Shown piece by piece: positions 746 to 27,909 of a stretch of 29,839 nucleotides of DNA. This DNA comes from a virus. The first letter of the stretch is position 1, and the number at the start of each line of letters is the position of its first letter. The translations under genes were made by a program, and so were the position numbers. The DNA lies in IMG/VR virus record IMGVR_UViG_3300050821_002185, positions 1-29,839 of that record. One strand, written 5' to 3'. The notes beneath the pieces were generated by a model. The model ran no database searches. It was not told where the DNA came from and worked only from the letters and a program-made list of their open reading frames with translations.

Positions 746-1900
746 CTACAAATGACTATCGACTAACGGTTTTACGCCCGATACTTTACTTTTAAGCATT
801 TTCCAGATAATCGGGCGAACGTTTTTTCCGTCTAACATTGCGAAGAGAACGCCCGAAATCGGCTTATTTTGTGTATTTGTAAAAAGTTCTGCCCACTGTT
901 TGCGAGTCGGAAGCTCATTTCCGTAAGGCGGCGCGTTTAGCGCTGCTCGGGCGCACATAAATATTGTTTCTGCTGCGCCATTAATTTGCTTGTATTCATT
1001 CTCCAGATAGTGCCGCCACTTGCTAATGAAATGACTAAACCAAGGGTTTGTCTCGTTCGTCCATTGATCTAAAACACTATCCCAACCGTTTTCCAGCGCT
1101 TCGAGAATGCGTTTCGGGCTAGTTTGTGTCACAATACGGTGAATTTTCAAGTATTCGAGTAGCTTTACTTTGAGACGAAAGGGTGTTTGGCCTGATCTAT
1201 GCCACACGAGCACAAAACCTTCGAAGTTCTGCTTATTAGTATTTGCTTCTTTTAACGCTTTATCCATCGTGAACCTATACTTTTCAGGAATGGACAAACT
1301 GTTTAAAGACGCGTACTGACACAAATCGTCGTAATCGATTTCTTCGCCCGTTTCGTTGTCGATCAGAGCGAGTAACGTCAACCCTTCACGTTTTCCATAA
1401 TCAACTACGATTCTGAGATTTGGTGTCAATCCTTCAAACACAGGAGTAAATCCCGGACGCCAGCGCCAATCCGGGCGATGTTTCTGATACCATTTCGTCG
1501 CCCATTTTGCGTGAACTGAATTGAACGAACCTTTGCTCGCGATATAATCTATCCCGTTGTAATTATACAGAATACAAAGAAATCCGTCCATTTTTTCGTA
1601 AATCTCGGGTTCGCCCGAAAAGCTCGCATCGTAATGAGAACAAAGCGCAGTGAGCGGAGGAACGCCATAATTAAAGAACTTCTCAAATGGCCGAGACACA
1701 ATTTCAAATGTCTCTGTATTGTAAATTAGCCCGCGACATTTTGTTGTGACCGAATCCCAAATATTATCGTAAACCGCTTTCCGGCCATAACACATAATCG
1801 CGAGCGGAAATTCGTCATGAAAGTTCCGGTCGATCAAACGATTATCGATATATTCATCGAGTTTGTCTGCATCGATTTCGAGATATGTGAATAAATTCAT
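746..1900 (-). CDS. T4 Rnl1-like RNA ligase
   Basis: The 384-residue protein shows nucleotidyltransferase motifs of the T4 RNA ligase 1 type. The adenylation motif is EKMDG near residue 104, with lysine as the AMP acceptor. RGLIYN lies just upstream near residue 56, FEGFVLVW is the motif IV-like segment, and the lysine pair in RLKVKL is motif V. The family seals RNA 5'-phosphate/3'-OH ends; in T4 it repairs host tRNAs cut by anticodon nucleases. No polynucleotide kinase partner is visible in this window. The ATG overlaps the stop of the 59-residue gene upstream (ATATGA). A copy of the dispersed palindrome lies inside at 1562-1578. Confidence 0.85.
   Translation of the reverse strand: MNLFTYLEIDADKLDEYIDNRLIDRNFHDEFPLAIMCYGRKAVYDNIWDSVTTKCRGLIYNTETFEIVSRPFEKFFNYGVPPLTALCSHYDASFSGEPEIYEKMDGFLCILYNYNGIDYIASKGSFNSVHAKWATKWYQKHRPDWRWRPGFTPVFEGLTPNLRIVVDYGKREGLTLLALIDNETGEEIDYDDLCQYASLNSLSIPEKYRFTMDKALKEANTNKQNFEGFVLVWHRSGQTPFRLKVKLLEYLKIHRIVTQTSPKRILEALENGWDSVLDQWTNETNPWFSHFISKWRHYLENEYKQINGAAETIFMCARAALNAPPYGNELPTRKQWAELFTNTQNKPISGVLFAMLDGKNVRPIIWKMLKSKVSGVKPLVDSHL
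1562..1578 (-). promoter_or_regulatory. Dispersed palindrome inside RNA ligase gene
   Basis: ATTATAC-AGA-ATACAAA on the plus strand is identical to the promoter-overlapping copy at 17454-17470. No TTGACA-like -35 lies at the right distance, so an operator or stoperator role fits better than a promoter. Confidence 0.5.
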
Positions 1901-15569: not shown

Positions 15570-16094
15570 CTAAATCGTAATGCCCGCGACTGCGATTTGT
15601 GCTTTCTGTTTATCCGATTCGACTAAATATCTCATTGTCGAACTTGGGTCTTTATGGCGCAAATACGATTGAATCATGCCAAGATTATGAGTCTTGTCCC
15701 AGAGTAGCATTGCCATTGAATGTCTTAGCGCATGCATATGTGCTTTCTTTGGGTGAATACCTGCAATCGCCGCGTATCGCTTGATAAATTCGTCGGCCCT
15801 TTGGCGCGAGAAATTGAATATGCGACCCGGATTCGACTGCGCAATCGCCAAGATGGGCGAACAATCGAACAATGGATCATTGTCTATATGTATCGGCGGA
15901 AGATCGTCATTTCCGCCCTTGAGCGCACCGATTGCGATTAGCCCAGATTGAATGTCGCGCCCGCAAATTGCCAAAGCTTCGCTGACCCGAGTCGCGTGCC
16001 ACAAAGACATACATAGAAACAAATGATGTGTCTTGTTATGATCGTGCGCCGTTTGCATAAGCGCACGAAGTTCGGGTTTTGTCAGGTATTCCAT
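15570..16094 (-). CDS. Minimal tyrosine recombinase
   Basis: The 174-residue protein contains the complete catalytic set of tyrosine recombinases: WHATRVSEAL (R at about 39), GALKGGN (beta-hairpin lysine), HALRHSMA (H-x-x-R), YLRHKD (second H) and STMRYL (nucleophilic tyrosine). No N-terminal core-binding domain precedes it, since the start ATG 16094 lies two bases after the upstream stop. That is about half the size of a phage integrase. It may act in integration, resolution or dimer processing; the small size leaves this open. Confidence 0.85.
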   Translation of the reverse strand: MEYLTKPELRALMQTAHDHNKTHHLFLCMSLWHATRVSEALAICGRDIQSGLIAIGALKGGNDDLPPIHIDNDPLFDCSPILAIAQSNPGRIFNFSRQRADEFIKRYAAIAGIHPKKAHMHALRHSMAMLLWDKTHNLGMIQSYLRHKDPSSTMRYLVESDKQKAQIAVAGITI

Positions 16095-16095
16095 T

Positions 16096-16311
16096 TTAGA
16101 GAACGGTTTGCTTGAGCACTTGCACATCATTATCACGCCATGTGCGCCCGCAAGCGCGAACTAATTCGTGTTTGGGCTTGAGTGAATGTACGTGTACATG
16201 TTCAGTGCCTTCGCACGTTACCTGCCAACCAAGAGAGCGAAGACGATTAGCAACTTGTTGTACTAATGTTGGCCCTGTATACACTGAGTAGAGACTAGCA
16301 ACTTGCGCCAT
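16096..16311 (-). CDS. Hypothetical protein (71 aa)
   Basis: ATG 16311 (MAQVASLYSVYTGPTLVQQV) lies eight bases after AGGAG. The product has a helix (VQQVANRLRSLGW) and a His/Val-rich beta segment (TEHVHVHSL). No family recognised. It is the first gene behind the operator-bearing promoter and runs into the recombinase gene, so the two are probably co-regulated. Confidence 0.65.
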   Translation of the reverse strand: MAQVASLYSVYTGPTLVQQVANRLRSLGWQVTCEGTEHVHVHSLKPKHELVRACGRTWRDNDVQVLKQTVL

Positions 16312-21047: not shown

Positions 21048-21271
21048 TTCTTTTCTCCGGTCTTCGAAGTTGAAAACCAACCGATAACAAAGTTAAGAAC
21101 AAGCGCACGCCAAAAGTTTAACTTCGCGACTCCGAAGATCGTCGTCAATAGCGAAATCGAGAAAAGATAATTAACTGCCCACATTGTCGGAAACGCGAGC
21201 AGAAGTGCGAGTCCGAATACAAGAACTAATACGCCAATTACTGCAACAACTCCCGCCAAAAAATCAGTCAT
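21044..21271 (-). CDS. Membrane protein (75 aa)
   Basis: ATG 21271 follows AGGAGA. The product has two or three hydrophobic helices (about 5-29 AGVVAVIGVLVLVFGLALLLAF, and 31-47, with 52-66 less hydrophobic) and a basic cytosolic tail ending KTGEKK. Small membrane proteins like this are frequent in phage early operons. Function unknown. Confidence 0.7.
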   Translation of the reverse strand: MTDFLAGVVAVIGVLVLVFGLALLLAFPTMWAVNYLFSISLLTTIFGVAKLNFWRALVLNFVIGWFSTSKTGEKK

Positions 21272-21334
21272 AAAATTCTCCTAATAAATTAAATGCCGCT
21301 ATTATTTAATAAGGAAGCGGCCAACCTCATGCGA

Positions 21335-21475
21335 TTAAAGCCCTGCGGCCATCGCAAACGTCTTCGGCTTTTCAGTCGTAGCGTTTATGGTTTCTGTGTC
21401 CTTAACGCGGCCACAGCATTCGTGTCCATCCATTATCATTTCATCATCGCCATCGATAACCAGTATCAGGCCCAT
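21335..21475 (-). CDS. Possible small protein (46 aa)
   Basis: ATG 21475 opens a 46-residue frame with credible composition: MGLILVIDGDDEMIMDGHEC, then CGRVKDTETINATTEKPKTF. The ribosome site is weak (GAGAAAAAG, rather distant) and no overlap with a neighbour supports it. It lies within an otherwise gene-free stretch of about 360 bases. Confidence 0.4.
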   Translation of the reverse strand: MGLILVIDGDDEMIMDGHECCGRVKDTETINATTEKPKTFAMAAGL

Positions 21476-21562
21476 CAAAGCAGCTTTTTCTCGAAACCGA
21501 TATTCTTTCGCCCTTACTATAGGTATTCAGGGTGGGACTTACATCGATACGCAAAGCCACTT

Positions 21563-21600
21563 TGGTGGACCTGCCCGGATTCGAACCGGGGTGTGACAAC
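21563..21600 (-). other. 3' half of a tRNA gene (possible attachment core)
   Basis: The minus strand carries a perfect tRNA T-arm (CCCGG-TTCGAAT-CCGGG), the 3' acceptor strand CAGGTCC, discriminator A and encoded CCA. A matching 5' acceptor strand (GGACCTG), D-arm and anticodon arm are absent at the expected distance. Phage attP sites often hold just the 3' half of a host tRNA gene, and a tyrosine recombinase lies 5.5 kb away. It could also be a tRNA remnant. Confidence 0.55.
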
Positions 21601-21634
21601 GGAAATAACAACTTCATCTGAACAAATTTACAAA

Positions 21635-21928
21635 TTAAAACTCTAGACTTTCTTTGACATCTGCAATTGCTTCGGAATATCCGTCATCGAATGCGTCACT
21701 GTATTGTTCAAAAGCAAAGTCGTCTTCGGTTAGTTCTACTCCGCAATCAGTACAAGTTTCAGGCTCCGGTTCCGGGTCTGCTTTAGTATATTCTTGCGTA
21801 TTGACTGTATTACCGACTTGACCTTGCGCAAATTGCGAATTAATCTGACTGTCACGCAAACCGTCTTCATAACCTTCTGATCGTGCGCCCCACAACAAGT
21901 TATTCAAATCTGCTACTGTAATATTCAT
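21635..21928 (-). CDS. Hypothetical acidic protein with CxxC (97 aa)
   Basis: I chose ATG 21928 (MNITVADLNNLLWGARSEGY) after AAAGGA; a GTG at 21961 would lie in the upstream hairpin. The protein is acidic, with a helix (GYEDGLRDSQINSQFAQ), a PEPEPE linker, TCTDCGVEL (a CxxC pair) and a Phe/Asp-rich C-terminus ending KESLEF. No family recognised. Confidence 0.65.
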   Translation of the reverse strand: MNITVADLNNLLWGARSEGYEDGLRDSQINSQFAQGQVGNTVNTQEYTKADPEPEPETCTDCGVELTEDDFAFEQYSDAFDDGYSEAIADVKESLEF

Positions 21929-27194: not shown

Positions 27195-27860
27195 TTATTT
27201 TGTTTTAATATAAGGCTGAAGCGGGTACTTCAATAGCGGCGTCAGTTCCGGTCGAAGAACATATACATAGCGATGTTTTGATTCTCTCGGCAGCGTTTCG
27301 ATTGTCAGCCCCAAAGCTTTCAGTTTTGGTATAGACGATGTTCCGTAGCGATTTACACACATACGTGGATGAACGTCAATCCCATTTACGAAGATTCTCG
27401 GGCGTGCAGGCTTTTGTAAACCTGTGTAAAGCCAATTGCCAGCGCGATAAATTCCACCAGAATGCCCATGTACAGGATCAGCAAATGAGAGAACTGCCAG
27501 CAAGTCCGTATTCTTTTTAAGCCAGCGAAGACACCAGCCTACGAATTGACTTTCGCTATTTTTTGGAACTTCATCTAACAGAACAAGGCGCATTAGTTCT
27601 CGATACTTAGAAGTGTCATCGTGCCCGGACAACACGCAAGAGGCTTTGGGATTACCAGCCATATAGCCGAATAAGCACACGCCCGCTAATTCGCCGTTGT
27701 ATTCTAGTTTGAAGCTGAAGTCTATCCCGCCCGGATGCGTCTTGGAATAGTGGTTTGTTTTCACGAACTTAGAGACTTCTTTAAGTGAACAAACGGAAAA
27801 ATGGAGCGGAAGGGTCGATTTCGAATCGCCATCTTGCGATTGGGTCGCTTGTTCTACCAT
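27195..27860 (-). CDS. Mom-like DNA adenine modification protein
   Basis: The 221-residue protein resembles phage Mu Mom and relatives, GNAT-fold enzymes that hypermodify adenine and block restriction. Visible features: VKTNHYSKTHPGG (about 33-45), GELAGVCLFGYMAG (about 56-69), YRELMRLVLLDEVPKNSESQFVGWCLRWLKK (about 85-115) and LSFADPVHGHSGGIYRAGNWLYTG (about 124-147), followed by a basic C-terminus. The first 20 or so residues are not part of the family; they are translated from a tRNA-Gly-like sequence. ATG 27860 is the only credible start. It ends against the replication promoter. Confidence 0.75.
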   Translation of the reverse strand: MVEQATQSQDGDSKSTLPLHFSVCSLKEVSKFVKTNHYSKTHPGGIDFSFKLEYNGELAGVCLFGYMAGNPKASCVLSGHDDTSKYRELMRLVLLDEVPKNSESQFVGWCLRWLKKNTDLLAVLSFADPVHGHSGGIYRAGNWLYTGLQKPARPRIFVNGIDVHPRMCVNRYGTSSIPKLKALGLTIETLPRESKHRYVYVLRPELTPLLKYPLQPYIKTK

Positions 27861-27874
27861 TGAACTACCTCCGC
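27802..27874 (-). tRNA. Degenerate tRNA-Gly-like sequence forming a gene start
   Basis: The 73 bases carry a tRNA-Gly skeleton: acceptor GCGGAGG / CTTCCGC (one G-U), TA, D-stem GTTC/GAAC with loop AATGGTA, T-loop TTCGAAA, and 3' TCCA. The anticodon arm pairs GCGA/TCGC but leaves only CCCAA as loop, two bases short of the seven expected for a CCC anticodon, and the T-stem has a bulge. A working tRNA is therefore unlikely. Its GGAGG and D-loop ATG serve as ribosome site and start codon of the Mom-like gene. Confidence 0.7.
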
Positions 27875-27880
27875 ATTCTT

Positions 27881-27909
27881 AGAATACATGTACAAAGGCG
27901 ACGTGTCAA
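27881..27909 (-). promoter_or_regulatory. Promoter of tRNA-like/Mom gene with palindrome
   Basis: Minus-strand TTGACA (27909-27904), 17 bp, TATTCT (27886-27881); start is predicted at about 27874, the first base of the tRNA-like sequence. The spacer/-10 form TTTGTAC-AT-GTATTCT. An inverted repeat GTGTC...GACAC (27903-27926) covers the -35 box. Confidence 0.75.

Follow-up and report, generated by a model that had tools for sequence, protein, structure and literature searches.

The 29,839-nucleotide viral sequence IMGVR_UViG_3300050821_002185 of IMG/VR, analyzed here over its whole length and referred to as the window, carries a mom-like gene that begins inside a sequence resembling a glycine transfer RNA (tRNA-Gly). 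The initial annotation had taken this arrangement for a singular case, but dozens of divergent phages show it, in the same frame, and the tRNA-mom pair is a widespread module. Judging from sequence, it is quite likely that the element is a dedicated, non-translating tRNA-Gly working with Mom as a source of glycine. Mom itself is probably a Gly-tRNA:DNA-adenine transferase, with a purpose-built tRNA-Gly gene forming an in-frame part of mom, the enzyme and the carrier of its charged substrate being encoded in the same bases.

The mom gene of the window opens within a tRNA-Gly-like element

The features concerned, all on the minus strand, are the following; those within the element were read from the sequence, the D-loop also from the list of open reading frames (ORFs).

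27881-27909 (-): sigma-70-like promoter, TTGACA-17 nt-TATTCT, 10 of 12 consensus matches, with the expected start near tRNA base 1 (27874)
27802-27874 (-): tRNA-Gly-like element of 73 nucleotides (nt) with encoded CCA; RF00005, 37 bits; mom-tRNA model R1, 74.4 bits, the window sequence being itself part of that model
27868-27872 (-): GGAGG, 5' strand of the acceptor stem and ribosome-binding site of mom
27855-27861 (-): D-loop AATGGTA, holding the mom ATG (27860-27858)
27836-27848 (-): anticodon arm GCGA-CCCAA-UCGC, with a 5-nt loop, two short, and CC kept
27813-27830 (-): T-arm GGCGA-UUCGAAA-UCG[A]CC, whose bulged A (27815) is the hallmark common to other mom-linked tRNAs
27802-27812 (-): acceptor 3' strand CUUCCGC, discriminator U73 and CCA
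27195-27860 (-): mom-like ORF of 221 amino acids; PF25680, E 3.8e-40, residues 20-218; phrog_1384
27549-27551 (-): Ser104, counterpart in the alignment of Mu Mom Ser124, the residue changed in the inactive S124A mutant of PDB 8bv8

The initial annotation had placed a tRNA-Gly, complete from acceptor to CCA except for two bases missing from the anticodon loop, at 27874-27802, and both statements hold. All seven acceptor pairs are formed, the discriminator is U73, CCA is encoded and the anticodon loop has five nucleotides; the A bulged from the T-stem was absent from that description. The RF00005 match spans 27874-27805 on the minus strand at 37 bits (gathering score 29), with E values of 9.5e-6 and 4.2e-8 in two runs. 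The element was not called by ARAGORN and was also lost when the whole window was scanned with Rfam in fast gathering mode, showing that search filters matter here. Glycine identity in bacteria is set by U73, G1-C72, C2-G71, C35 and C36 (PMC9976931). All of these are present in the window element, C35 and C36 being numbered by analogy given its 5-nt loop. The features for decoding, a 7-nt anticodon loop and a regular T-stem, are replaced by the short loop and the bulged A.

The protein encoded by the ORF scored 138.1 bits against PF25680 (Mom), with a curated cutoff of 27.1. As had been proposed, its frame opens at the ATG in the D-loop (tRNA position 15), with the GGAGG of the acceptor stem (27872-27868) placed 7 nt 5' of it as ribosome site, and about 20 residues are encoded by the tRNA: residues 1-19 wholly, with codon 20 straddling the last two tRNA bases. 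The Mom domain sets in at residue 20, that is, at the end of the tRNA. In the AlphaFold model (predicted local distance difference test score 95.2), the first strand begins directly past the CCA end, and the fold is similar to that of GCN5-related N-acetyltransferases (GNAT), the best PDB match being 8bv8 (Mu Mom, E 3.1e-13). The claim that no other start exists has to be qualified, as an in-frame GTG is present at 27764 (residue 33); it is, however, an implausible start because it falls within the Mom domain, downstream of the model's first strand and helix, both of which would be removed. The spacing of the promoter puts the predicted transcription start near the first base of the tRNA, also as proposed, on the basis of consensus match; five promoter-like sites were found versus 1.4 in shuffled sequences.

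The bulged tRNA-Gly is linked to mom across phages

The pattern GCGGTTCRANNCCGACYYCNNCGCTCCA, built from the 3' half of the element with its bulged-A T-stem, was searched in viral contigs and genomes. It matched at least 120 viral contigs and 5 contigs in 84,980 genomes; Mom patterns searched against the genome contigs gave no match. At the pattern loci, mom was recognized by a Mom profile made from the alignments of this analysis. Among the matches listed, mom adjoins the tRNA in 117 of the 125 loci, directly downstream in 84 and directly upstream in 33. Among these same matches, 83 of the 84 downstream genes are in the same frame and read through the tRNA, and 31 of the 33 upstream frames also read through it and then stop soon after. 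No adjacent mom was found at 120 control loci (about 1 Mb) matching an unbulged tRNA-Gly pattern, giving for 117/125 listed matches versus 0/120 a Fisher p of about 5e-61, or about 1e-18 when relatedness is roughly allowed for. The mom frame is open through the tRNA in 63/64 of the 5' elements and 27/27 of the 3' elements, compared with 16/68 control tRNAs.

When Mom loci were located by protein alone, the element was present in about 20 lineages; it is found in 23 of 39 Mom clusters (50% identity). In a tree built quickly from 203 Moms, its presence requires at least 14 changes, nine of them forced by well-supported branches, which suggests that the linkage was gained or lost repeatedly.

Eight loci among the matches listed have no recognized mom. 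The contig edge comes directly after the tRNA in L190 and L245, while L246 begins inside the tRNA and L222 just before it. Only the T-arm and the 3' half of the acceptor are left in L232 (near 4343) and L258 (near 1996, reverse strand); by eye, these half-elements adjoin an ORF resembling a small terminase subunit. At L224:1183-1630 and L254:4075-4240, bulged tRNA-Gly are fused in frame to short ORFs outside the Mom profile, which may be decayed mom genes or another partner. A tyrosine recombinase-like ORF lies directly upstream of the tRNA in L224.

This ORF, together with a tyrosine recombinase 12 kb away in the window, would fit a remnant of recombination at a host tRNA-Gly serving as attachment site, or a captured pseudogene, with the ATG serving mom by chance. 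Such an origin is nevertheless highly improbable: it is mom, not an integrase, that neighbors 117/125 of the loci listed, compensatory changes maintain the structure, and matches in the 84,980 genomes number only 5.

The tRNA fold and glycine identity are conserved

Fitted to the bulged tRNA fold, 65 elements showed 89.7% paired cells and 252 double-changed cells, compared with 87 ± 9 in shuffled sets. The acceptor was 99.8% paired in the same test, and slid versions of the fold collapsed. The initial annotation had raised the possibility that related phages share the N-terminus of Mom without tRNA-like pairing, or that covariance models read the region as something other than a tRNA. The opposite was found, as the model scores the region as tRNA and homologues retain the pairing while the encoded peptide drifts; no function is claimed for this peptide.

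Because parts of the T-stem, CGC and U73 are prescribed by the search pattern, their conservation among the pattern matches is built in. No such bias affects the 25 elements located via Mom. GCG/CGC-U73 is present in 25/25 of these, CC in the anticodon loop in 24/25 and, by inspection, the T-stem bulge in 23/25; the full set of G1-C72, C2-G71, C35 C36 and U73 is shared by the window and 24/25 of them. This conserved identity set points to glycylation. In the degenerate elements of L064, L068 and L081, features of the D-arm or T-loop are gone, but the acceptor, CC, U73 and the T-stem bulge persist.

A 7-nt anticodon loop is found in 62/68 control tRNAs versus 28/91 mom-tRNAs. A general loss of U33 was considered and rejected: most loops deviate in length, being longer or shorter, and retain UUCC. 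The non-proteinogenic tRNA-Gly of Staphylococcus aureus evade EF-Tu via changes at the T-arm pairs 49-65 and 51-63 (review PMC9976931), and the bulge of the mom-tRNAs appears, from its position in the sequence, to fall in the T-stem region of these contact pairs. The bulge and the altered loops argue against use in translation. A role of this kind, whether as supplementary Gly tRNA, +1 frameshift suppressor with an 8-nt loop or toxin decoy, seems very unlikely to us. Although 8-nt loops can be drawn for many of the anticodon arms, and host GNAT and toxSAS toxins do target tRNA-Gly (PMC9976931, PMC11559606), such a tRNA would not account for the exclusive linkage to mom, control tRNA-Gly not being near mom, nor for the bulged T-stem and loops ranging from 5 to 8 nt; moreover, only U or A occurs at N34 in the pattern set, and G is absent there.

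Layouts of tRNA and mom in individual phages

The two closest Moms (L001 and L002) align to the window Mom only from residues 17-19 onward. Directly upstream of mom, L001 has an ARAGORN-positive tRNA-Gly(CCC) and L002 a degenerate tRNA-Gly. Two tandem tRNA-mom units are present in L003 (L003:2345-3594), whose Mom is 34% identical to that of the window; the first L003 tRNA closely resembles the window element despite the distance between the proteins. A scan of 100 records with mom genes added elements at L018, L024, L045, L096, L102, L105 and L139. In nearly all these relatives, tRNA and Mom share one frame across the CCA end (CTC CAN) without an intervening start codon, and the start is either the ATG of the D-loop or one lying a few bases 5' of the tRNA; L002, with its own ATG 3' of the tRNA, is the exception. 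Tandem genes were also seen at L038:1247-3133, where each of two moms stands behind a tRNA-like element, the two elements being identical and lacking a clear bulge, and at L096:703-2085, where a tRNA-mom fusion is followed by a second mom without tRNA.

In L117 and L128, the tRNA is on the opposite strand and overlaps the 3' end of mom. Unannotated tRNA-Gly also lie over the 3' end of mom in the Arthrobacter phages Sicarius2, Wyborn and Sonny:

L394:1495-1569, unannotated tRNA-Gly over the mom 3' end
L397:1501-1574, unannotated tRNA-Gly over the mom 3' end
L008:2137-2210, unannotated tRNA-Gly over the mom 3' end

Microbacterium phage Dropshot has an annotated tRNA-Gly(ccc) convergent beside mom, on the opposite strand. 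The tRNA-Gly beside mom is the sole Rfam tRNA match in Sicarius2 and Wyborn, and the sole one above cutoff in Dropshot.

The opposite-strand tRNAs of L117, L128 and Dropshot indicate that the element is more than a leader of the mom mRNA. The initial annotation had suggested that folding or RNase cutting gates translation, and a cis-regulator can be pictured in which a tRNA-like fold of the mRNA hides the ribosome site and the start, with folding, cutting, binding of Mom or glycyl-tRNA synthetase (GlyRS), or the level of Gly-tRNA acting as the gate. The pairing of GGAGG in the acceptor stem of the window and the ATG in its D-loop are in line with this, as are the single frame of 83/84 of the 5' fusions listed and the translation inhibition structure of the Mu mom mRNA, which is opened by Com (PMC6483171). 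We nonetheless find it unlikely as an account of the element. Gating is possible in the 5' layout but leaves unexplained the 33 listed loci with the tRNA 3' of mom and those with it on the opposite strand; in several 5' loci the start codon is upstream of the tRNA, and a leader has no need of a conserved glycine identity and CCA.

Several candidates were rejected. A tblastn match to the tRNA-encoded N-terminus in the Corynebacterium phages Darwin and Stickynote corresponds to the end of an upstream gene, with no tRNA. The one tRNA 1.2 kb from mom in phiEf11 is a tRNA-Asn, not Gly, and non-Gly tRNAs close to mom at four loci (L020, L036, L073 and L074) resemble phage tRNA genes or tRNA clusters.

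Other features of the window

A T4 RNA ligase 1-like protein (PF09511, E 1.6e-19), possibly relevant to tRNA repair, is encoded at 746-1900 (-), and the tyrosine recombinase (PF00589) at 15570-16136 (-). A permuted transfer-messenger RNA (tmRNA) called by ARAGORN at 21244-21655 (-) is unsupported by Rfam and probably false.

A private Gly-tRNA as the proposed glycine donor of Mom

The product of Mu Mom is a glycinamide-type adenine. The varying position of the tRNA around mom suggests an RNA acting in trans and, combined with the glycine identity and a GNAT partner with such a product, leads to the hypothesis that the element is Mom's glycine donor. In this model, the host GlyRS would charge the element, and the bulged T-stem and altered anticodon loop would keep it off EF-Tu and the ribosome. 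Mom would draw the glycine from Gly-tRNA, perhaps through the conserved serine, and attach it to the N6 position of adenine in the DNA of the phage, where it would be rearranged to the glycinamide-type base as in Mu. In the window, one transcript could serve as tRNA precursor or, unprocessed, as mom mRNA starting in the D-loop. Gating of mom translation might be a second effect in the 5' layout, a transcript cut to release the tRNA losing the mom start. Charging, processing, transfer and rearrangement are steps that we infer.

Some observations weigh against this model. The elements of the Arthrobacter phages and Dropshot have no bulge, and most of the isolated phages with mom among those examined have no linked tRNA and would need the Gly-tRNA of the host. 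Processing of the RNA, its charging and its exclusion from EF-Tu are read from sequence alone.

The Mu com-mom operon shares with our system the Mom family (PF25680), the fold (PDB 8bv8), the position of Ser124 and an mRNA structure at the start, and differs in its donor, described in the literature as acyl-CoA-like versus the tRNA proposed here; we know of no tRNA at Mu com-mom, where no search was made. The Staphylococcus non-proteinogenic tRNA-Gly that serve as cell-wall donors have the glycine identity, altered EF-Tu pairs in the T-stem and a non-ribosomal acceptor (PMC9976931). They are, however, chromosomal stand-alone genes with no bulge reported and peptidoglycan as acceptor, whereas the mom-tRNAs are phage-borne, inside or beside the enzyme gene, with DNA as the proposed acceptor. 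FemX, DhpK and Orf11 are GNAT-fold aminoacyl-tRNA transferases for which Gly-tRNA donors are known (PMC12945691), but they usually have double GNAT domains and act on peptides or small molecules, with no DNA substrates. tmRNA also unites tRNA and mRNA parts in one RNA; it works in trans-translation and has a short tag frame, whereas the mom-tRNA is itself read as codons of the enzyme.

The identity of Mom's group donor has, as far as we know, been an unanswered question since the 1980s. The donor has been proposed, by inference, to be an acyl-CoA such as glycyl-CoA (PMC7824862), and GNAT-fold transferases using Gly-tRNA exist (PMC12945691). A literature search without subscription papers and most preprints found no paper tying Mom to tRNA; if use of Gly-tRNA by Mom is already published, the private tRNA within the gene remains new. 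If true, the model would give a direct, testable answer from comparative genomics to the question of Mom's donor. DNA would join the acceptors of aminoacyl-tRNAs, a viral class of non-translating tRNAs would be added, and a tRNA gene and an enzyme gene would occupy the same bases in frame. The element also offers a sequence handle by which phages with likely Mom-modified DNA can be found.
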